From positions 1 to 64,000 of the forward strand of contig JAHFRW010000007.1 in assembly GCA_023266055.1 (NCBI GenBank): a stretch of DNA of 64,000 nucleotides, in the 5' to 3' direction. The notes under the pieces are model-generated. The model searched no databases. It was not told where the DNA came from and worked only from the letters and a program-made list of their open reading frames with translations. This document shows positions 30,731 to 50,381 of the stretch, one piece after another. How positions within the stretch are numbered: the first letter of the stretch is position 1; the number at the start of each line of letters is the position of its first letter. The translations under genes and the position numbers were made by a program. The DNA is from Gammaproteobacteria bacterium. GTDB lineage: Bacteria; Pseudomonadota; Gammaproteobacteria; Ga0077554; Ga007554.

Positions 30731-31156
30731 ACGTAACACATGCTGGAAGCGGGCGCCAAGGTACCCATTATCTGCAAAGATAATGCGGGAAGCGTCGCTG
30801 GGTAGTTCATGCACATTTTACTTAATAGTCATCATGTCTATGACTTGTGCACCGTTCCTCTGCGCTTGCTAAGATTCGATGGGTGCGCGTATATTGAGGC
30901 TGAGTATCAAAACTAATGTGATGGATGCTGTCTTTACTCACTCGAGATTCAGCAGGTAAGCGTGAGCACTGGAACATTTAAAAGTTTGCATTCACGAAAT
31001 ATTCCCATTGATGTTGTGACTTGTATCCATTCACAAAGGTGAAGCATGTGTATCCGGGTTTGGAGAAAGTGGAGTCTGGAGAACCACTATAAAAAACGGG
31101 GCGGTACTCGAAAAGCCATATGAGTAGGGATGAAGCTGCATTGAAGGAGATCTGAT

Positions 31157-37873: not shown

Positions 37874-38749
37874 ATGACACACTATACGTTACGTTCCGAC
37901 ATGCTATCAGTAAGAATTTCCAGCCAGGGCGCTGAAATGCAATCTATCAAAACAGCGGCAGGGCTGGAGTTACTCTGGCAGGCTGACCCCGCCGTATGGG
38001 CGCGTCATGCGCCGCATTTGTTCCCGATTGTCGGCCGGTTGAAAAACGACACATTGCATCATGAGGGTAAGGGTTATCAGCTCAGCCAGCACGGCTTTGC
38101 GCGTGACTTGCCCTTTGTATGTGAATCCTCAAGCGATAGCAGTTGCACGATGTTGCTGACAGATAGCGAGCAGACACGCGAACGTTATCCCTTTGCGTTT
38201 GAGTTACGTATTACCCATCGTTTGAAAAATAATACGTTGGAAATTATTTATGCGGTGCGTAACCCGGCTGCCAGTGATTTGTTATGCAGCGTGGGCACCC
38301 ACCCCGCCTTCGCCTGGCCGCTATCTTCCGGCATAGACAGGGCACAGCACAAACTTGTATTTGATCACGCGGAACCCGCGCCGATACGCCGTTTACAGGG
38401 CGGTCTGGTGAAAAGCGAAACGTATCCCACGCCTGTACAGGGTCGTGCCATGCCATTGAGTGACGCGCTGTTTGTGGATGACGTAATATTTTTTGATAAC
38501 CTCAAAAGCCGTTCACTGAAATATACGGCTCCTGATGTCCCTGGTACGCCGGTGATCCGTGTTGATTTTGCTGACTTCCCGCATTTGGGCATCTGGACTA
38601 AGCCTGGCGCGCCTTTTGTGTGTATAGAGCCTTGGCAGGGCCATGCCAGCCCGCAGGAATTTGACGGTGAATTTCGTGATAAGCCGGGCGTGGTGAGCAT
38701 CGCTGCCGGGCAGGAGCGCGCGTGGCGCTATACAATTTCGGTGGGATAA
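37874..38749 (+). CDS. aldose 1-epimerase family protein
   Basis: GAEMQSIKTAAGLELLWQADPAVWARHAPHLFPIVGRL; GTHPAFAWPL. Confidence 0.88.
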   Translation: MTHYTLRSDMLSVRISSQGAEMQSIKTAAGLELLWQADPAVWARHAPHLFPIVGRLKNDTLHHEGKGYQLSQHGFARDLPFVCESSSDSSCTMLLTDSEQTRERYPFAFELRITHRLKNNTLEIIYAVRNPAASDLLCSVGTHPAFAWPLSSGIDRAQHKLVFDHAEPAPIRRLQGGLVKSETYPTPVQGRAMPLSDALFVDDVIFFDNLKSRSLKYTAPDVPGTPVIRVDFADFPHLGIWTKPGAPFVCIEPWQGHASPQEFDGEFRDKPGVVSIAAGQERAWRYTISVG

Positions 38750-38946
38750 CGCTATTTCCAATTCAATAACTGATGTTACGCAAAGCTCATAGGGTACAGC
38801 CACGCAAGGAAACGCAAAAGATAGGCGAGGGACAATTCTCCAGCCGCCTGCCGCACGGGATTCAACGCAAAGCAAAACAGCGCCTTGACGCGGTACATGC
38901 CGCTGATACTCTGGAGGATTTGCGTCTGCCTCCCTCCAACTGGCTA

Positions 38947-39075
38947 GTAGTGCGTTTCACTAAAACACTGTCATTTCGACCGAAGGGAGAAATCTTGTCT
39001 ACATTGAGCCTGTATAGATTTCTCCCTTCGGTCGAAATGACAGAATTTTGTAAGTGTTTTACTGAAACGCACTAC
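38947..39075. repeat. MITE-like long inverted repeat
   Basis: GTAGTGCGTTTCACTAAAACAC..TGTCATTTCGACCGAAGGGAGAAATCT / AGATTTCTCCCTTCGGTCGAAATGACA..GTGTTTTACTGAAACGCACTAC. Confidence 0.85.
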
Positions 39076-39089
39076 CAGGAGTGTAGTGG

Positions 39090-40300
<1,211 letters not shown>

Positions 40301-40342
40301 TCACTCAAAAGTCGGTGGCCAGTTCTACTATGCCACTACACT

Positions 40343-41449
40343 AGACGATTAAATGCGTGTGTTGCGCCGACCGATATGTTGGCGCGGCTTGGCGGCGATG
40401 AATTCGTTGTGGTGGTCCATGATGTCAATCTGGAACAAGAGGTGGAACCGTTGGCGAAAACAATCGCTCACGCATTGTCTCAACCTTATAAGGTCTCAGG
40501 GTACGAATTGCATACCAGCCCAAGCATGGGCATTAGTTTTTATCCTGCTAATGGAGAAAACGCTGACACGTTGATGAGAAATGCCGATGCCGCGATGTAC
40601 CATGTAAAATCTCAGGGCCGCAACAACTACCAGTTTTTTACCTCTGAAATGAACCATGTCGCGATTGAAAGATTGGAATTGGAAAATAGCCTGCACTCGG
40701 CGCTCGAACGCAACGAGATGTTCCTGAACTACCAGCCGCAGATTGATATCAAGACCGGCAATGTGGTGGGAATGGAAGCATTGATGCGTTGGATGCATCC
40801 GACCAGGGGCTTGGTGATGCCTGATCAATTCATCCCCATCGCAGAAGAAACCGGCCTGATATTGCCTTTGGGAGAATGGGCGCTACGCACAGCCTGTCAG
40901 CAATTTCGGTCTTGGCAGAAAGCGGGGTTGACACATATCAAACTAATGGCGGTCAACATCTCGGTGCTCCAACTTCAACGCGGGGATTTGCCGGCCTTGG
41001 TGGCCTCGGTTTTAAGTGAAACGCGTATGAGTGCCGAAAATCTTGAATTGGAAATTACGGAATCTGCGGCCATGAAAAATCCCCAGCAAACCATTGAGGT
41101 GCTCAACACCTTGTCCAAAATGGGTGTGCGCCTGGCGATTGATGACTTCGGTACCGGACATTCATCGCTCAATTATCTTAAACTATTTCCGATCCACTGC
41201 CTTAAGCTTGATGGTTCATTCGTCAGGGGCATTGAGAGTGACAGCAATGATGCCGCCATCTGTGATGCCTCAATCACGCTCGCGCACAATCTGGGTCTGG
41301 ACGTTGTGGCCGAGGGCGTGGAAACAGCAAGGCAGTATGAGTACCTTAAGGAGCATAAGTGCGGAAAAATTCAAGGCTATTTTTTTAGTAAGGCCTTATC
41401 GCCTGACGATGCGGGTGCATTCGCAACGCTGCATAGTTTTGCCCGATGA
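40343..41449 (+). pseudogene. 5'-truncated GGDEF-EAL protein
   Basis: Frame starts at the IS3 right end: LNACVAPTDMLARLGGDEFVVVV... EAL domain MEALMRWMHPTRG, DDFGTGHSS, KLDGSFV. Confidence 0.88.
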
Positions 41450-41478
41450 ATAATGCCTAAGGCCGCAATCCATCCCAA

Positions 41479-41853
41479 TCACGTTTCGACAAATTCCAAG
41501 GTATTGCCATCGGGGTCGCGGCAAAATAATGCGCGCCTACCGGATTTGCTGAGCGTATAGGCGGCATTCGCATTCGCCAAAAGTTCAGCTAATGCAAAAA
41601 TATCGTTGACCGAAAAAGCAGTGTGTCGGTCACGGCCGCCGTGTTGTGGGCGCCCCTCGCGCGGGTCAGGGTTTGGCAACTGCATCAGATGAAATTGCTG
41701 TTTGCCTAACTCTAACCACGCACCCGGATAACCTAGATCCGGACGCGCAGCGCTGACTTTGAAACCGAGTACGCCAGAATAAAATTCTAATGCAACGTCT
41801 ATATTGTTCACTAGAACGCTACTATGCAAAAGACCATTAACTTTGAAAGTCAT
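41479..41853 (-). CDS. glyoxalase/bleomycin-resistance (VOC) family protein
   Basis: NGLLHSSVLVNNIDVALEFYSGVLGFK...FCRDPDGNTLEFVE. Confidence 0.88.
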   Translation of the reverse strand: MTFKVNGLLHSSVLVNNIDVALEFYSGVLGFKVSAARPDLGYPGAWLELGKQQFHLMQLPNPDPREGRPQHGGRDRHTAFSVNDIFALAELLANANAAYTLSKSGRRALFCRDPDGNTLEFVET

Positions 41854-42104
41854 CGACACTATCCTAAAAACGGCGTTACGTGTCCTGCTTAGAACGCGCA
41901 ATATGGACGAGTTTAATTTACACCTCAATAAGGTGGAGAAAACTCGCACTAGCCGCTTGCATTATTCAAATATTAAACGTAACTACTCGCCCCCTAGCCG
42001 ATAAAAATATTTCTCAGATCGGTCAAAAATCTCTTGACACGTTTTTTGTATATAAATTGCGCAACTCTTTGTTCCGGTCAACGGATAATCAATAGAGTCA
42101 GCCC

Positions 42105-43662
42105 CGAATGGCACTAAGTTAAGCTGCTTTACCATTGCACCTGCCTCTATGTTTTGTCTCTTGCATTTCATGCCTTGGAGCGGTTAACAACTGATACGGC
42201 TTGGGCCTTCGTTTCACTGCTCTGGGTTCACTTCTACCCGGTCGTTCTGGCACGATATAATCGGCGATAGATTCATACAGCAATTGGATTAAACGGCGCT
42301 GCTCTTGAGGGCTGATTTTGTTCTGATTGAGATGCGGTTCCCACTGCCGAAGCGCTTGGACACTGCCCTTAAAACTGAGTCGGCGTACCTGTTCACCGGC
42401 CTGTTCTGCCGCCTCAACCATGAGATAACGAATGCAATTATAGGCGATCATGTGCATCACGATTTCCTTGCATACCATGTCGGGTGTTTTGCAACGCAAA
42501 ATATCCATGCCCATTGTCGTTTTTATATCCCGAAAGAACAGCTCAACATCCCAGCGTTGGAAATAAAGATCGGCCAGGTTATCGGCGGTATACGCTTTTG
42601 CATCCAACAATGGGGTGATGATATAGAAGCGCTGGGTTCTGAATCCAGGCTGATTAACGCTTACTTTTATTTGCCGCAAAAGAAGAGTTTCTGGTAACGC
42701 TTCCCAATCGGCTTGGGAATAACTCGACGCTTTACTTCTGACCGGCTTTTTCCAGTGGATTAACAAATCATCATTGCCAAGCACCTCGACGGCGTCGACT
42801 TCGGTAACAGGAATACGCCTGGCCAGTGTAATGACCGAATCAACGCCCCTGTCTTTAAAGCTCGATAGATCAAAATAACTACAAAATCCCTTATCTCCCA
42901 AGAATATATCACCGGGTTTGAAGGTGTCCCATTGCTTGCGCAGCATGGGCAGTTCATGGCTTTTCTTGTTGCCAACCTCGTGGCTCAGCAAAGCGCCGGT
43001 TTGCAGGCAAAAGCAAGCGCAGATTGATGCTTGCGGAAAACCACAGCCTGCCTTTTGATGTCGCTGCTGTGGCCACATTAGCTGATTTGCTATCGTGTCG
43101 GGCATGCTTACGCCCGTGCCATCAACCACGACAACCCGACGACCATTCCTGCGCTCAGGATCAGGGATATTCTGCAGCTGATTAGCGGTATGCTGAAGTA
43201 TTGTCTCAAGGCCAGGAAGATCCAGTTTGCTGCGTGCCTGGCAGTAGGCCGCCGTTGACGACGAGGGCAAGGGTTTTGATTTCATCGCGGCAAAGGCCTG
43301 GAGTTTGCGTATCACTTCCTGACATCCGCCATCATCGCCTAACACCTGAGAAAAAAAGGCCCAGAAAGTGTTTTCTTTGCTGAAGAAACGACGACGACTG
43401 AGAGCCCCAGATTCTGAGGGACGCAGATACTGACTGGGAATGAAATTCCGAAAACATTCCCCTAATTGACTAAACGATTTTTGCTTTAACTTTACGACCT
43501 CATCGGAAAGTTTCTGACTGGCTGAGCGTGGTTTTCTACGGAGTGTCTGGAGGTGGAAACCAGGGAATAAAGGCGTTGTATTTTGCATAGCGAATTATGC
43601 CATTTCGCTCACCATTTTTCAGCTTATTCACTTGCTAAAATGGCTTAACTTAGTGCCATTCG
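42105..43662 (-). mobile_element. IS4-family insertion sequence
   Basis: Terminal inverted repeats CGAATGGCACTAAGTTAAGC / GCTTAACTTAGTGCCATTCG. Confidence 0.92.
42119..43588 (-). CDS. IS4-family DDE transposase
   Basis: VVVDGTGVSMPDT, GDIFLGDKGFCSY, YFQRWDVELFFRDIKTTMGMDILRCKTPDMVCKEI (YREK-like). Confidence 0.93.
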   Translation of the reverse strand: MQNTTPLFPGFHLQTLRRKPRSASQKLSDEVVKLKQKSFSQLGECFRNFIPSQYLRPSESGALSRRRFFSKENTFWAFFSQVLGDDGGCQEVIRKLQAFAAMKSKPLPSSSTAAYCQARSKLDLPGLETILQHTANQLQNIPDPERRNGRRVVVVDGTGVSMPDTIANQLMWPQQRHQKAGCGFPQASICACFCLQTGALLSHEVGNKKSHELPMLRKQWDTFKPGDIFLGDKGFCSYFDLSSFKDRGVDSVITLARRIPVTEVDAVEVLGNDDLLIHWKKPVRSKASSYSQADWEALPETLLLRQIKVSVNQPGFRTQRFYIITPLLDAKAYTADNLADLYFQRWDVELFFRDIKTTMGMDILRCKTPDMVCKEIVMHMIAYNCIRYLMVEAAEQAGEQVRRLSFKGSVQALRQWEPHLNQNKISPQEQRRLIQLLYESIADYIVPERPGRSEPRAVKRRPKPYQLLTAPRHEMQETKHRGRCNGKAA

Positions 43663-43692
43663 AGTCTGACCCCATTGATCTTTAGGGCGAAG

Positions 43693-44817
43693 TCAGATTG
43701 AACGGCGAATGTGTCGGACGCAATTCTTGTTTGCAGCGATATTCATCTCACCACCATGTGAAACTCGGACCTGAATGTGCCCCATTTTTTCATTAATACC
43801 GATTCTTTCTTTCGTAACAGCCTTCATTTCTCTGTCAACCATATTGTCTCTTTTGATTGTCTTTGCTGATGCGGGATCACGAGTGATAATAAACTCAGAA
43901 GAGATGGCCGTTACTCTTTCAATATTGGCTGGAGTAGGCAATCCGCAACGTCTAAACGGAGTCGTAATTGATAATGGATTATCAATCATGAGATCAGTCC
44001 ATATTTTGTCATGATGCCCAGTTTCACTGCCGTGGTGAGATACTTTATATAGTGAAGAGGCAGGCAGGCTTAGCTCACTGATTATGTTGCTGTTAAATAT
44101 GGCTGACCAACCAGTCTGCATATTGCCAGTTTCTTCTAGGTCAGAGCCAAGTACCGTGGAAAATCTTCCGAACGTAAAATGTATGGCTACTGAGTTCAGG
44201 TTTTCACTTTCAGGTATAACATTTCTTAAACGATCCGAATTGTTTTTTGGGATTAGCTCAACCAATTTAGATATGGATTGTGTTACTGCGGTGCTGCTAG
44301 GAGATAGTGCGATCATTCGTGTTTGAATGTCGTCTCTGTAATCAAAGAAGGTGAGTCGCGCCTTGATCGGGTCGAGTCGAGACTTATCTTTGGCGTCAAA
44401 GAGGAATTGAACTATATTGCTGAATTCACGTATTTCACGATCAATATTGGAAAAAATATCTTTTTTATATATGGCGGCAAGATGGAAAGCTTCTCTCGAG
44501 GAAAGGGCGCCGGAGTGATACAGCTTAGCATTTCGGCATGTTTTGAGAAGTGCAAATGCGCCTTCGATATGATCGGAATGCCAATGAGTAATGAGAATTC
44601 CTGTCACCTGAGTTGATGCATCAACCCCAATAGAATTTAAATACGCTAAAGCTATAGGTTGTTTTGTCTCTGGGCACAGGCAGCTATCTATAATAAACCA
44701 GCGTCCATTGCCGTAGTGGAGAACGATGCACTCCCCTATTCCAGGGCCAAATAAGGATATTTCAGCGTGATCAGGATTAGGTGGAGTGAGTTGTATCAGA
44801 GAGGAAGAAATCAGCAT
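43693..44817 (-). CDS. ComEC-like metallo-beta-lactamase-fold hydrolase
   Basis: GIGECIVLHYGNGRWFIIDSC, ITHWHSDHIEG (HXHXDH), VLGSDLEE, YKVSHHGSETG. Confidence 0.88.
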   Translation of the reverse strand: MLISSSLIQLTPPNPDHAEISLFGPGIGECIVLHYGNGRWFIIDSCLCPETKQPIALAYLNSIGVDASTQVTGILITHWHSDHIEGAFALLKTCRNAKLYHSGALSSREAFHLAAIYKKDIFSNIDREIREFSNIVQFLFDAKDKSRLDPIKARLTFFDYRDDIQTRMIALSPSSTAVTQSISKLVELIPKNNSDRLRNVIPESENLNSVAIHFTFGRFSTVLGSDLEETGNMQTGWSAIFNSNIISELSLPASSLYKVSHHGSETGHHDKIWTDLMIDNPLSITTPFRRCGLPTPANIERVTAISSEFIITRDPASAKTIKRDNMVDREMKAVTKERIGINEKMGHIQVRVSHGGEMNIAANKNCVRHIRRSI

Positions 44818-45298
44818 ACTCCTTAGCTATGTTTTCTGCGCTTATTATTTCAGACTTTGTCCATTTCGGAAGTCTACGGAAGCTTATTTTTGAAAACCGT
44901 TCTCTAGGATACTTGTAGCCAAGCCGATAACCTATATGCCACAAAAACATCGCGCCAGCCTGAATGAGCTCTCTATCTCGGCCTTCGATTTCTTCAAGTG
45001 ATAAAACAATAAATTCGCCTGGATTATCTGGATTCGTTAAATCCTCCAATTTGGCAGTTAGTTCTTCGTTGTTGAACTCTACGACTACTCCACTCCATTT
45101 TTGTTTAATAATTTCTATTTTTTTGTCAGCGACAAGATCAGAAGTGGCTTTCTTTGTGGTGCGCTGCTTGGGCACAGTTTTTTCTTCTGTATAGACCATG
45201 TCTGTACCAGGCTGGCCATACCTGTATGCATCATCAGTATTATATTGATCTACGTTGGCAGTGTTTTGCTGCGGCGCATAACTAAGGGCTGTGCTCAC
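44777..45298 (-). CDS. hypothetical protein, middle gene of the MBL operon
   Basis: 173 aa; overlaps both neighbours; no family recognised. Confidence 0.75.
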   Translation of the reverse strand: MSTALSYAPQQNTANVDQYNTDDAYRYGQPGTDMVYTEEKTVPKQRTTKKATSDLVADKKIEIIKQKWSGVVVEFNNEELTAKLEDLTNPDNPGEFIVLSLEEIEGRDRELIQAGAMFLWHIGYRLGYKYPRERFSKISFRRLPKWTKSEIISAENIAKEYADFFLSDTTHST

Positions 45299-45987
45299 TT
45301 TTTACCCCTTAATTGAGAGTCCATTATTTTAGAGGTAATGTCCTTGGCTAAATCTAAGGACTTTTCCCAATTATCTTCTAGAAAACTAACCATTGCAATG
45401 GCGGATGATTGATCAATTTCCACGTGATTATTAATGCCAAAAGAAACGGTGTACTCATGCTGAGAGGCCACAGCTATTTTGGGGCGAATATAACCACGAA
45501 AGCCGTCTGGTCGAGGTAAGTTCATTGTCAATTCCCAAAGCCCTATCTCTTCCTGTCTTGGCTTGTCAAGGTTCGTAAAATAATCTAGTGAATCTTCCCA
45601 GTGTTTTTTTGGTGCTAATTCGCTGCCGAATTGTCTCCATTCATCCTTGTTTGCGATTTTAATGATAGAGCTATAATTCATGCCCATTTGATTAATTGGT
45701 GTTTCTCTCAAAATTGAAAAGGTGCTGGCTATAAAATCCTTGAGAGCCAAGAAATCACTGGCTAAGAATGACCGTATTGAAAACTGGTTGAGCAGGGCAA
45801 CCACTTTGCGATTTCCAGGAAGCGTTATCTGGGAAACATCCTGTAAATTAATAACTTCATCGTTGCTGTAGTCCCACTCTCCAACAATCCCTTTCCTAAT
45901 AAACCACTCGGGATGGAATATTTTTGGATTGAAATTACCAGCAAGAACAATGTTGGCTTCTTCACTAATAGTTTCCCATGCGCTCAT
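45295..45987 (-). CDS. hypothetical protein (possibly TIGR04255-like), first gene of the MBL operon
   Basis: 230 aa; 4 bp ATGA overlap with next gene; ETPINQMGMNYSSIIKI segment suggestive only. Confidence 0.75.
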   Translation of the reverse strand: MSAWETISEEANIVLAGNFNPKIFHPEWFIRKGIVGEWDYSNDEVINLQDVSQITLPGNRKVVALLNQFSIRSFLASDFLALKDFIASTFSILRETPINQMGMNYSSIIKIANKDEWRQFGSELAPKKHWEDSLDYFTNLDKPRQEEIGLWELTMNLPRPDGFRGYIRPKIAVASQHEYTVSFGINNHVEIDQSSAIAMVSFLEDNWEKSLDLAKDITSKIMDSQLRGKK

Positions 45988-46285
45988 AGTACTTTTAATA
46001 TCCCGAATATATTGTTAATTCTACATTTCAAATATGAATGTACTTTTGCATCTTAATGCGATGTGGCTATCGCTAATTAAAGGTATATCACATCATGGCT
46101 ATTGAGATATGACCCTCTTGGTATTAGCAGCCAATGTCGATGAAATCACATAAGAGCTATATGATAGTGTATCATAGTTTGAGTGCCTTGTGAAAAAATA
46201 GTCTATTATCAATGCGTTATCATGATTCCATCTTTTTTGTGCGGCTTGTGATATTTAATTTACTTTTTTTCGCACAGCCCGGTAA

Positions 46286-46312
46286 GTTGGGCTGAATGAA
46301 ATGAAGCCCAAC
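46286..46312. repeat. REP-like hairpin upstream of RAYT
   Basis: GTTGGGCT gaatgaaatga AGCCCAAC. Confidence 0.6.
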
Positions 46313-46850
46313 AACATGAGGGAAGAGCGAAGCGAAGGGTGTAGAGAAAGGATACGTTACCGGCGAGCCGATGCGGCGGGTGGAACGTATTTTTTCACGG
46401 TAAATCTGGCCGAGCGGAGTTCCGATAAGCTGGTGCGGCATATGGAAGAACTGCGTGCGGTGATGAAAAATGTGAAAGAGACGCATCCCTTTGCCATTGT
46501 GGCAATGGTGGTGTTACCTGAACACCCGCACGCGGTATGGCGCTTGCCGCCGGGTGATGCCGATTACCCCCTACGCTGGTCGTTGATTAAGGCCAGGTTC
46601 TCGCGGCAATGGGTAAAAGACGAACGTATCCGCAAAAGCCGCCAAGCCAAGCGTGAGCGTGGTATTTGGCAGCGGCGGTATTGGGAGCATCAAATCCAGT
46701 ATTAAACCGATCTGGCGCGGCATGTGGATTACATCCGCTATAATCCCGTGAAACATGGCTGGGTCAGCCGTCCTGTGGATTGGCCTCATTCAATACTGCA
46801 CGACCACATCGAGCGCGGCAGGGTAACGCCGAATTGGGGTGGGCAAGCGA
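46301..46850 (+). pseudogene. REP-associated tyrosine transposase (RAYT), interrupted by TAA
   Basis: YRRADAAGGTYFFTVNLAER, VLPEHPHAVWRLPPGDADYPLRW, then stop at 46703-46705, then TDLARHVDYIRYNPVKHGWV in the same frame. Confidence 0.88.
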
Positions 46851-46889
46851 GGAATCTTAAGATCCCTCACTGCGTTTGCCGTACAAGGA

Positions 46890-47015
46890 TGTGGCCGCTC
46901 CTGCGCATCCTCCACTCGCGGCACTAGTGCATCCCTGCACGTCGCAAATGCTGTGGAGCACAGGCGACCGCCAGGAGCAATTGCCGGATGTGCGGGAGCA
47001 GCCGGGATGACAACA
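46890..47015. repeat. palindromic repeat beside RAYT, related to ribE insert
   Basis: GGCCGCTCCTGCGCATCC...GCACTAGTGCATCCCTGCACGTCGC block shared (inverted core) with 24097-24160. Confidence 0.7.
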
Positions 47016-47069
47016 GCGCCGCGAGCGGCGGGGAATTTACCCGAAAGCGATCGAATTGGAGAAAGGCTG

Positions 47070-47888
47070 TCATCGTAGCGGTAGTGAATATGTGAAAGTT
47101 TCCAGAGTTTTCAACTCTTCTGCGCTAAAGCCTGCGGCTAACCGCGCTTCGGTATGAAAGGGTGGGCGGAGTTGTGCATTGTACTCTTGCAATAAGGTGC
47201 GAAACATTGCCACAGGTTCGATGCTGCGTTGCTCGCACAGGTAGGTATACCAGCGATTACCAATGCGCACATGGCCTACTTCATCACGCAAAATAATCTC
47301 GAGGATCTTTACTGCCTGTTGATCGCCCCCTGATGCCAGTTTATGTATCAGAGTGGGCGTGACATCCAGTCCGCGTGCTTCCAGCACGCGGGGTACCAGC
47401 GCCATGCGCACCAGCGGATCATGCGCGGTTCTAACCGCCATTTCCCACAGGCCGTTATGCGCGGTAAAGCTGCCGTAATCGTATTCCATGCTGCGCAGAT
47501 GATCGCGTAACAGCGTGAAATGATACGCTTCCTCGGCGGCAACCTTCAGCCAGTCACCATAATATTCTCGAGGCAGATCACGAAAGCGGTACGCGGCATC
47601 CAGCGCCAGATTGATGGCATTAAATTCGATATGTGCAATCGAGTGAATGAGCGCGGCCCGGCCTTCGGGTGACGAGACCTTACGTTGCGCCACCGCCAGC
47701 GCAGACACTAGTGTGGGTTGCGCAGGGCGGCCGGGTTCAGCAATCGGCATGACAGGGGCATGGCCGCCCTGCAATGTAAGCTGGCCGTGTTCCCAGTCTG
47801 CTGCCAATGCCGTGGTCAGGGCGAGCTTGCGGTCTACGTCGCAGACGTGCAGGCAGGTATAGATACGATGAAACAGATCCTGGGACAT
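47070..47888 (-). CDS. DUF455 / ferritin-like family protein
   Basis: IHSIAHIEFNAINLALDAAYRF, EEAYHFTLLRDHL, RDEVGHVRIGNRWY. Confidence 0.9.
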   Translation of the reverse strand: MSQDLFHRIYTCLHVCDVDRKLALTTALAADWEHGQLTLQGGHAPVMPIAEPGRPAQPTLVSALAVAQRKVSSPEGRAALIHSIAHIEFNAINLALDAAYRFRDLPREYYGDWLKVAAEEAYHFTLLRDHLRSMEYDYGSFTAHNGLWEMAVRTAHDPLVRMALVPRVLEARGLDVTPTLIHKLASGGDQQAVKILEIILRDEVGHVRIGNRWYTYLCEQRSIEPVAMFRTLLQEYNAQLRPPFHTEARLAAGFSAEELKTLETFTYSLPLR

Positions 47889-48053
47889 GGATGACGCTAT
47901 TAAATGCTGAGTTCAATGATTCTATCAAAAAACCCCATGCCGGGTTTGTTTTATACAGTGGCTGGCTAAGTTAATGAAATCACAGGATATAAAAATTCAC
48001 GGCAATTCTTGCTAAAATAGGCATCAATTTTTCAGATTAAGGATTCGCAGCGC

Positions 48054-50381
48054 ATGATCATGAGCATTACCCAACGTATCGCCAACGAACTTGCAGTACG
48101 TGAACATCAGATTGAAACCGCTGTGGGATTGCTGGATGAAGGTGCAACCGTGCCATTCATTGCGCGTTACCGCAAGGAAGCCACGGGTGGACTGGATGAC
48201 ATACAACTGCGATTCCTGGAAGAACGTGTGCGATATTTGCGCGAACTGGAAGATCGTCGTGCTGCGATTTTAAAAAGCATCAGTGACCAGGACAAGCTCA
48301 CGCCCGAGTTGAACAAGGAAGTTATTGAGGCGGAGACCAAGACCCGTCTCGAAGATTTGTATTTGCCCTACAAGCCCAAGCGCCGCACCAAGGCCCAGAT
48401 TGCCCGTGAGGCGGGGCTAGCGCCGCTGGCACAGGCGCTGTTGCTGGATCCCGCACTCACGCCTGAAGAAACGGCAATGATGTATGTGGATGCCGACAAG
48501 AGCGTGGCGGATGTAAAGGGGGCACTGGAAGGCGCGCGTCACATCCTGATTGAACAATTTGCGGAAGATGCCGAACTGCTGGGTCGTTTGCGCGAATTTG
48601 TGTGGGGTAACGCCATCATTCTTTCGCGCGTGAAAGAAGGCAAACAGGATGAAGGCGCCAAATTCCGTGACTATTTTGAGTACCGCGAACCGCTCAAGGC
48701 CGTGCCCTCGCACCGTACCCTGGCGCTGTTGCGGGGCAGGAATGAAGGATTTCTGCAAGTGTCGATGGTGCTGTCTGAAGAAGAAGGGGTTGAACACACC
48801 CGTCAGGCACAGCACAACACCTGTGAGCGCATGATTGCGCAGCGTTTCAATATTGCCGATCAGGGTCGTCCGGCCGATGCCTGGCTAAATGAAACCGTGC
48901 GCTGGTCATGGCGCGTGAAAATTTTCATGCACCTTGATCTTGAATTGATGATGCACCTGCGTGACAACGCCGAAGCCGAGGCGATGAAGGTGTTTGCGCG
49001 TAATATGCATGACCTGCTGCTGGCCGCCCCGGCCGGGCCGCGTGTTGTGATGGGCCTGGATCCCGGCTTGCGCACGGGCGTCAAGGTTGCGGTAGTGGAT
49101 ATCAACGGAAAACTGCTTGATACCGCCACCATCTATCCCCATGTACCACGTAACCAGTGGGATGCTGCATTGCACACTCTGGCCGAATTATCGCGTAAAC
49201 ACAATGTTGATCTTGTCAGCATCGGCAATGGCACGGCGTCGCGTGAAACTGAGCGTCTGGCGGCCGATCTGGCCAAGCGCCATCCTGAGCTCGCGCTGCA
49301 AAAGCTGGTGGTTTCCGAAGCCGGCGCATCGGTATACTCAGCCTCGGAATTTGCATCACAGGAATTTCCCGATCTGGATGTCAGCCTGCGTGGTGCGGTA
49401 TCCATTGCGCGACGCTTGCAGGACCCGCTGGCAGAACTGGTGAAAATTGACCCCAAGGCGATTGGTGTGGGGCAGTATCAGCACGATGTCAATCAGGTAG
49501 AGCTGGCGCGCACGCTGGATGCCGTGGTGGAAGATTGCGTGAATGCGGTGGGCGTGGATGTGAATACCGCGTCGGTGCCATTGCTGGCGCGTATTTCCGG
49601 CTTGAATCAGACGCTGGCGAAAAACATTGTGGAATTCCGTGACAGTAATGGCTCTTTCAAAAACCGCGAGCAACTCAAAAAAGTGCCACGTATGGGTGAA
49701 AAAACCTTTGAACAGGCCGCAGGTTTTCTGCGCATCATGAATGGTGAAAATCCGGTTGATTCATCGGCGGTGCATCCGGAAAGTTACCCGGTGGTGCAGC
49801 GCATCATCGGCAAGCTCGACGTAGACATTCGCACCCTGATCGGGAACAGCACCCTGCTGAAAACGCTGTCACCCCGTGACTTTACCGATGAACGCTTTGG
49901 CTTGCCCACCGTGCAGGACATTCTTGCCGAGCTGGAAAAACCGGGGCGTGATCCTCGTCCCGAATTCAAGGCGGCCGTGTTCAAGGAAGGTGTGGAAGAA
50001 CTGAAGGATCTGCAAGTGGGCATGATCCTGGAAGGCACGGTGACCAACGTCACTAACTTCGGTGCGTTTGTGGATATTGGCGTGCATCAGGACGGACTGG
50101 TGCATGTCTCGGCGCTGGCAAATAAATTTGTCAAGGACGTGCACAGCGTCGTCAAAACCGGTGATATCGTGCGTGTACGTGTGCTGGAGGTGGATGAAAA
50201 GCGTCGCCGCATTGCACTGACCATGCGACTGGAAGACCCTGCCGTGGCAGTGACCCCTGCAAGGTCTGATGCGCCACGCAACCAGGCCAAATCCCAGCCA
50301 AAAGCCCGGCCCAAACAGGAGGCTCGGCCAGCCATGGAAAACGCCATGTCTGCTGCGTTTTCAAAATTGCTGCAAAAGTAA
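48054..50381 (+). CDS. tex: Tex-family RNA-binding transcription accessory protein
   Basis: [34 protein letters not shown]-terminal S1 domain. Confidence 0.97.

Follow-up and report, generated by a model that had tools for sequence, protein, structure and literature searches.

Metallo-beta-lactamase (MBL) DNases are recent effectors common to several immune systems, and their control has always been explained via a partner protease. In the MBLs of Hachiman, AVAST, Lamassu and canu, which are pro-DNases, two insertions block the active site until the partner protease opens it (PMC12799240). Canu (CanABC) is a three-gene caspase-nuclease system, in which the two other genes are needed for activation of the pro-nuclease (PMC12799240). 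A further point of reference is the slot that separates the portal gene from replication gene A (gpA) in P2-like prophages, the gpA-gpQ hotspot, which, according to the main texts of two studies, is occupied by old and tin in P2 and has yielded numerous validated anti-phage systems (PMC9122126, PMC9519451). These main texts name no metallo-beta-lactamase system at the hotspot; that of PMC9122126 reports one validated three-gene hotspot system “with no clear predicted domain”.

Against this background, we analysed a three-gene locus within a 64,000-nt stretch of gammaproteobacterial DNA (hereafter the window). The genes are referred to as P1, P2 and MBL, and together as the trio. Like the Avs1, Hachiman, Lamassu and DRT-type modules, the trio appears to be a mobile defence operon whose effector is an MBL of the ComEC type, and, as in the MBLs of Hachiman, AVAST and Lamassu, additional residues separate the HxHxDH motif from the LLGAD/HHGS block. 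Unlike the Avs1, Hachiman, Lamassu and DRT-type modules, it has neither a trypsin-like protease nor a STAND, HamAB, SMC or RT partner, and its MBL is the last gene, with P1 and an OB-fold protein as partners. P1 and P2 were indeed the partners at every evaluable locus and no protease domain was found in them, which separates the trio from the nuclease-protease modules (Hachiman, Lamassu, DRT type). Compared with AVAST type 1, the trio MBL reached 17.3 bits against the Avs1a cut-off of 420, and no STAND NTPase or trypsin-like protease gene adjoins the trio in the window. Canu shares with the trio the number of genes and the terminal position of the MBL; however, P1 and P2 showed no caspase or peptidase match and no conserved Cys/His, and the modelled fold of P1 is not that of a caspase. 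The 6A-MBL (NF058524) is also an MBL-fold effector, and the MBL of the E. coli trio was weakly similar to it over most of its length, but the score of 27.6 bits is far below the cut-off of 220 and the window MBL was not among the matches at E ≤ 1.

The closest structures to the trio MBL are those of ComEC/Rec2 (9ic4, 30bt), with common blocks at the metal site, at N..S and at HHGS. In contrast to ComEC/Rec2, the trio MBL is soluble and stand-alone, without the membrane channel (competence) domains, and the stretch from its metal motif to the third (N206) block is longer by about 45 residues. Finally, two homologous loci (L043 and L049) occupy the same slot as the cargo of the P2 gpA-gpQ hotspot, such as old and tin (PMC9122126, PMC9519451). 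By the defining features compared, the trio appears to lie outside AVAST type 1, the nuclease-protease modules, canu and 6A-MBL.

The locus and its setting in the window

A first-pass annotation of this DNA had proposed three minus-strand genes with overlapping ends, more AT-rich than their surroundings and lying between an IS4-type element and a RAYT pseudogene. The three open reading frames were confirmed at the proposed positions (Table 1) and are conserved as proteins elsewhere. The overlaps were also found, of 4 nt between P1 and P2 and of 41 nt between P2 and MBL, although the former reads GTGA and not ATGA as described, because P2 starts with GTG. The G+C content of the trio is 41.4%, compared to 51.6% for the window and 54.6% for positions 47070-50381, in agreement with the annotation. 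The flanks were likewise as described: the IS4-type element looks complete, with 47-nt inverted repeats at 42088-42134 and 43633-43679, and ends 13 nt from the MBL stop codon on the 3' side of that gene, while the RAYT-like open reading frame looks truncated.

In two congeners, the aldose-epimerase-like gene that ends at 38749 in the window directly adjoins the gene found here at 47070-47888, indicating that the intervening DNA is an acquired insertion. In the window, the trio is part of this insertion of about 8.3 kb; its usual homes are prophages and plasmids, not classical defence islands. No known defence gene was identified among the neighbours scanned around the trio in the window, and no second copy of the trio was found in eight genomes of the same family as the window genome. 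Elsewhere in the window, nested near-perfect inverted repeats (34 nt at 94% and 26 nt at 92%) lie at 38944-39078 beside the end of the IS3 element, and may represent a MITE-like sequence or a long hairpin. The sole Rfam match in the window was a DUF805 RNA at 31064-31134 (RF03081, 68.1 bits).

Table 1. Coordinates of the trio, of motifs and regions within its products, and of neighbouring features in the window.
Feature	Position	Strand	Remarks
P1, first gene	45295..45987	-	230 aa; family without a name
P2, second gene	44777..45298	-	173 aa; GTG start
OB-fold part of P2	44879..45118	-	Residues 61-140; from structure prediction and Foldseek
MBL, third gene	43693..44817	-	374 aa; ComEC-type metallo-beta-lactamase fold hydrolase, predicted nuclease effector
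HWHSDH metal-binding motif	44569..44586	-	MBL residues 78-83
MBL residues 84-205	44203..44568	-	Exceeds the corresponding part of the ComEC MBL domain by about 45 residues
HHGS motif, core of SHHGSETG	44026..44037	-	MBL residues 261-264
Strain-specific insertion with the trio	38750..47069	.	About 8.3 kb; from comparison with two congeners
IS3	39080-40342		Inside the insertion
Truncated GGDEF-EAL gene	40376-41449		Inside the insertion
Glyoxalase-like gene	41479-41949		Inside the insertion
IS4-type element	42088..43679	.	Adjoins the MBL 3' end; outside the system
RAYT-like open reading frame	46301-46705		134 aa; upstream of the trio; remnant

Predicted features of the three proteins

The third protein belongs to Lactamase_B (Pfam, E 4e-9), and no domain besides the MBL was found in it. 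Its nearest solved structure is the ComEC MBL domain 9ic4 (E 2.5e-11), in accordance with the ComEC/Rec2-type assignment of the first-pass annotation, and the HWHSDH and SHHGSETG motifs cited in that annotation are present. Alignment of the family revealed that H78, D82 and H83 of the HWHSDH motif are invariant in 33/33 members and H80 in 32/33, while D226, H261 and H262 are also invariant in all 33; the predicted metal ligands and active site are thus shown to be intact. The annotation had cited AVAST type 1 as an example of an anti-phage system with an MBL effector; the trio MBL is distantly related to the Avs1, LmuA and RTasMBL effectors, with matches to the LmuA, RTasMBL and Avs1a models that were weak and far below the family cut-offs. 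In the PHROGs collection, MBL matched strongly an uncharacterised family (phrog_28593, E 7e-37). The extra sequence in residues 84-205 provides candidate gating insertions, and no conserved cleavage residue was seen in these loops. MBL-fold enzymes are also known to hydrolyse RNA, cyclic nucleotides and other substrates.

The start of the MBL gene varies among members. At the conserved start, where the window has ATG (44817), the closest relatives L002 and L008 (5975-6075) carry ACG; no ATG, GTG or TTG was found there, and close by are a Shine-Dalgarno-like segment rich in purines and a run of seven T. Many other members start with GTG or TTG. This pattern of start codons suggests weak or coupled translation of the putative effector. 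A programmed frameshift from P2 into MBL, considered in view of the T run and the missing start in L002 and L008, was rejected: the run is absent from the window, and most loci have an MBL start of their own.

As the first-pass annotation had stated, the two partner proteins match no recognised family: P1 and P2 had no significant match in Pfam, NCBIfam or PADLOC, either alone or as sets of 11 homologues. Within PHROGs, each has a weak, uncharacterised relative (P1, phrog_36401, E 0.007; P2, phrog_32134, E 0.0018). The AlphaFold2 model of P1 (pLDDT 92.7, pTM 0.88) showed a duplicated beta-alpha architecture in two halves. The best PDB match of this model in Foldseek was AdoMetDC/prozyme, with a TM of 0.33, so that P1, as modelled, seems to have no close solved relative in the PDB. 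A true relationship to AdoMetDC/prozyme was rejected despite the Foldseek E of 1e-4, given this TM and an rmsd of 19 A, and at most a duplicated beta-alpha layout is shared. In a viral structure library, the model matched A0A515MGR4 (TM 0.61/0.68), which carries no annotation. The conserved residues of P1 are W28, G102, P21, P26, D84, N104, G121, P126, W130 and N186; no catalytic-looking Cys, His or Ser and no Cys/His/Ser triad was seen among the conserved positions. Membership of P1 in a TIGR04255-type or protease family was also discarded, as the three libraries gave no such match.

The predicted structure of P2 comprises a disordered segment (residues 1-60), then a confident beta-barrel and a C-terminal helix. 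Nearly all its top Foldseek matches were OB-folds, all of them weak (best E 0.014), and many are proteins that bind ssDNA or RNA (Rim1, RPA, exosome, LysRS). OB-folds also serve in protein binding.

Co-occurrence, inheritance and location of the trio

Homologous trios in the same gene order were found in other genomes and replicons. These included a Methylovulum genome (63% MBL identity), a plasmid of Adhaeribacter swui (Bacteroidota; about 30%) and a conjugative Pantoea plasmid, where the trio lies between two tyrosine recombinases. Across 399 evenly sampled Pseudomonadota genomes, surveyed with separate P1, P2 and MBL profiles, the P1 profile matched the window genome and four others (5/399), and the P2 and MBL profiles matched these five genomes and one more, with no others. 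The trio was complete in each of the four other P1-positive genomes. In the sixth genome (G089), a primosomal (PriA-like) gene is followed by a P2 that appears joined to the initial residues of P1 (L026, G089:C420, 1366-2069), the P1 profile had no match and MBL lies on a separate contig, which reads as a decayed or badly assembled copy. A close relative of this locus (L016) has an intact trio beside its PriA-like gene. The prevalence of the trio is about 1% of the sampled Pseudomonadota genomes, and the linkage of its three unrelated families was essentially complete, also when P1 or P2 served as the start of the search.

The same arrangement was observed in viral contigs. In IMG/VR, the order P1-P2-MBL was found in 30/30 loci having upstream sequence and a family-level MBL, counting one whose MBL runs off the contig; two further loci end before the P1/P2 region and stand outside the 30. 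Another IMG/VR locus (L055) has a distant MBL without P1/P2 partners, and a single-protein search of viral contigs with the MBL of L018 gave no match. The trees of P1, P2 and MBL, built from 33 loci after removal of near-duplicates, agreed with each other (Mantel r 0.86-0.88, 0/2000 shuffles), indicating that the trio moves as a whole. Synonymous change was saturated or nearly so, and for the pairs of relatives with estimable dS, dN/dS was 0.05-0.17 in all three genes, which points to purifying selection on each of them. Since all three open reading frames are conserved as proteins elsewhere with these ratios, the trio is beyond a chance assembly. Lack of co-conservation had been named beforehand as one refuting condition of the proposal; co-occurrence was found essentially without exception in unrelated genomes, plasmids and prophages. 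On these sequence comparisons, the three genes are shown to form one inherited unit on temperate phages, plasmids and islands.

Several sites recurred among the loci. In lambdoid prophages, the holin/endolysin cassette and the Q antiterminator flank the trio, which is encoded on the strand opposite the late genes (L006, L037, L039-L042, L044, L046, L050 and L051; L006 confirmed by Pfam, the E. coli loci annotated by RefSeq), an orientation that by analogy would suit cargo expressed during lysogeny. P2-like prophages carry it in the portal-gpA slot, where some non-defence cargo is found as well; Pfam confirmed this placement for L043 and L049, L047 and L048 show the same arrangement, and L036 shows the portal side only. 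The recurrent sites at defence hotspots of mobile elements comprise the P2-like portal-gpA slot, other prophage cargo positions, plasmids and an island. In addition, the trio adjoins a P2-type gpD and a repressor-like gene in L029, stands beside an integrase near mutS in L028 and L030, and lies near terminase genes in L008. In L017 (1920-10570), it follows zot and one small gene of an inovirus-like prophage (Rep_trans, Zot); this cargo of 2.4 kb is unusual for a filamentous phage. In E. coli, the trio is rare: a DNA-similarity search with one copy found it in 17 of 5,426 complete genomes, and strain ECOR29 carries it. Searches of 50,697 isolated-phage records with six different MBL queries did not find the trio.

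Candidate function and alternative explanations

The P1 homologue WP_000143147.1 is named “anti-phage protein” by RefSeq in two recently annotated E. coli genomes, NZ_CM149554.1 and NZ_CP104526.1 (L056 and L057), while in other E. coli genomes with the same locus the product is a “hypothetical protein”. No NCBIfam model accounts for the name, and literature searches by accession and by topic found no source for it. The DefensePredictor study, which assayed 94 units taken from 69 diverse E. coli strains, names no MBL system in its main text (PMC13092281). We treat the name as an annotation without a traceable source, supportive but not a proof; validation of an E. coli member under another name may have preceded this analysis. 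The label of a candidate undescribed system, given in the first-pass annotation, may not hold wholly, since one E. coli component already bears a RefSeq name.

The location in known prophage defence hotspots, together with the RefSeq name of one E. coli P1 homologue, supports the defence-like reading of the first-pass annotation, and the trio is probably an anti-phage or anti-MGE defence operon with a nuclease effector. The evidence fits a bacterial anti-virus system that has not been properly described so far. We infer a DNase activity, its gating, a sensing step and a protective outcome. MBL would be a DNase effector, inactive in the resting cell, probably held off by the long loops between HxHxDH and the N206/D226 block and probably also by association with P1 and P2. 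P1 and the OB-fold protein P2 would form the sensing or regulatory part; as a guess at their division of labour, P2 would most likely contact single-stranded nucleic acid or an SSB-like surface, and P1 would hold or release the effector. The trigger would be a competing phage that infects the cell or another mobile element that enters it: once P2 or P1 encounters an infection product, MBL would be released and degrade DNA. This would stop the infection, probably at the cell's expense, and the prophage or plasmid carrying the trio would gain protection of its host cell. Control by binding is proposed because the partners are not recognisable proteases and the loops have no conserved cleavage residue; the HamM/CanC mode of activation is not supported as such for the trio MBL. 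A narrower version, which we advance tentatively and with less than even confidence, is a protease-independent MBL-nuclease immunity in which P1, with no close fold in the PDB, and the OB-fold sensor P2 directly hold and license a ComEC-type DNase, a set widely employed by temperate phages in inter-phage warfare.

The trio could also be a toxin-antitoxin or addiction module, in which MBL as toxin and P1/P2 as antitoxin serve to stabilise the carrier prophage or plasmid, with phage defence at most a secondary effect. A nuclease-like enzyme in an operon with two small partners on plasmids and prophages is consistent with such a module, as are the weak MBL starts (many GTG or TTG, none in L002 and L008), which are expected of a toxic product. 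This explanation is nevertheless unlikely, considering that three components are each under purifying selection, that the library search revealed no DNA-binding repressor domain in P1 or P2, and that the trio is placed in defence hotspots and bears the RefSeq anti-phage name. Counter-defence, with MBL destroying a host immune nucleotide signal in aid of the carrier phage (as in Apyc1-type MBL sponges/hydrolases), is quite improbable: it would agree with the MBL fold, with carriage by phages and with a very weak Pfam match of MBL to Anti-Pycsar Apyc1 (E 0.11), but the closest MBL structures are ComEC DNases and not Apyc1, the trio occurs also on plasmids and in a chromosomal island, its transcription in lambdoid prophages runs opposite to the lytic late operon, and the six MBL queries did not find it in the isolated-phage records.

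A module for the phage life cycle or lysis timing would suit the observation that the trio often stands next to the holin/endolysin cassette and the Q antiterminator. Such a role, or that of fitness genes unrelated to immunity, is hardly to be expected of a unit whose other sites include gpA/portal of P2-like prophages, an inovirus-like prophage, plasmids and an island devoid of phage genes. Very improbable, too, is a ComEC-derived nuclease serving the host in DNA uptake or DNA repair, to which a ComEC-type MBL with an OB-fold partner might point; the unit has no transmembrane channel or competence gene, and its distribution is sporadic, in about 1% of Pseudomonadota genomes and on mobile elements.

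If the trio is indeed a defence operon, a system with an MBL nuclease effector but no protease would add a second gating route for MBL nucleases, and would offer a readily testable case of temperate phages that carry defence genes. P1 and P2 represent two families absent from Pfam, NCBIfam and PADLOC, and the three profiles are now supplied for finding the system in any genome.
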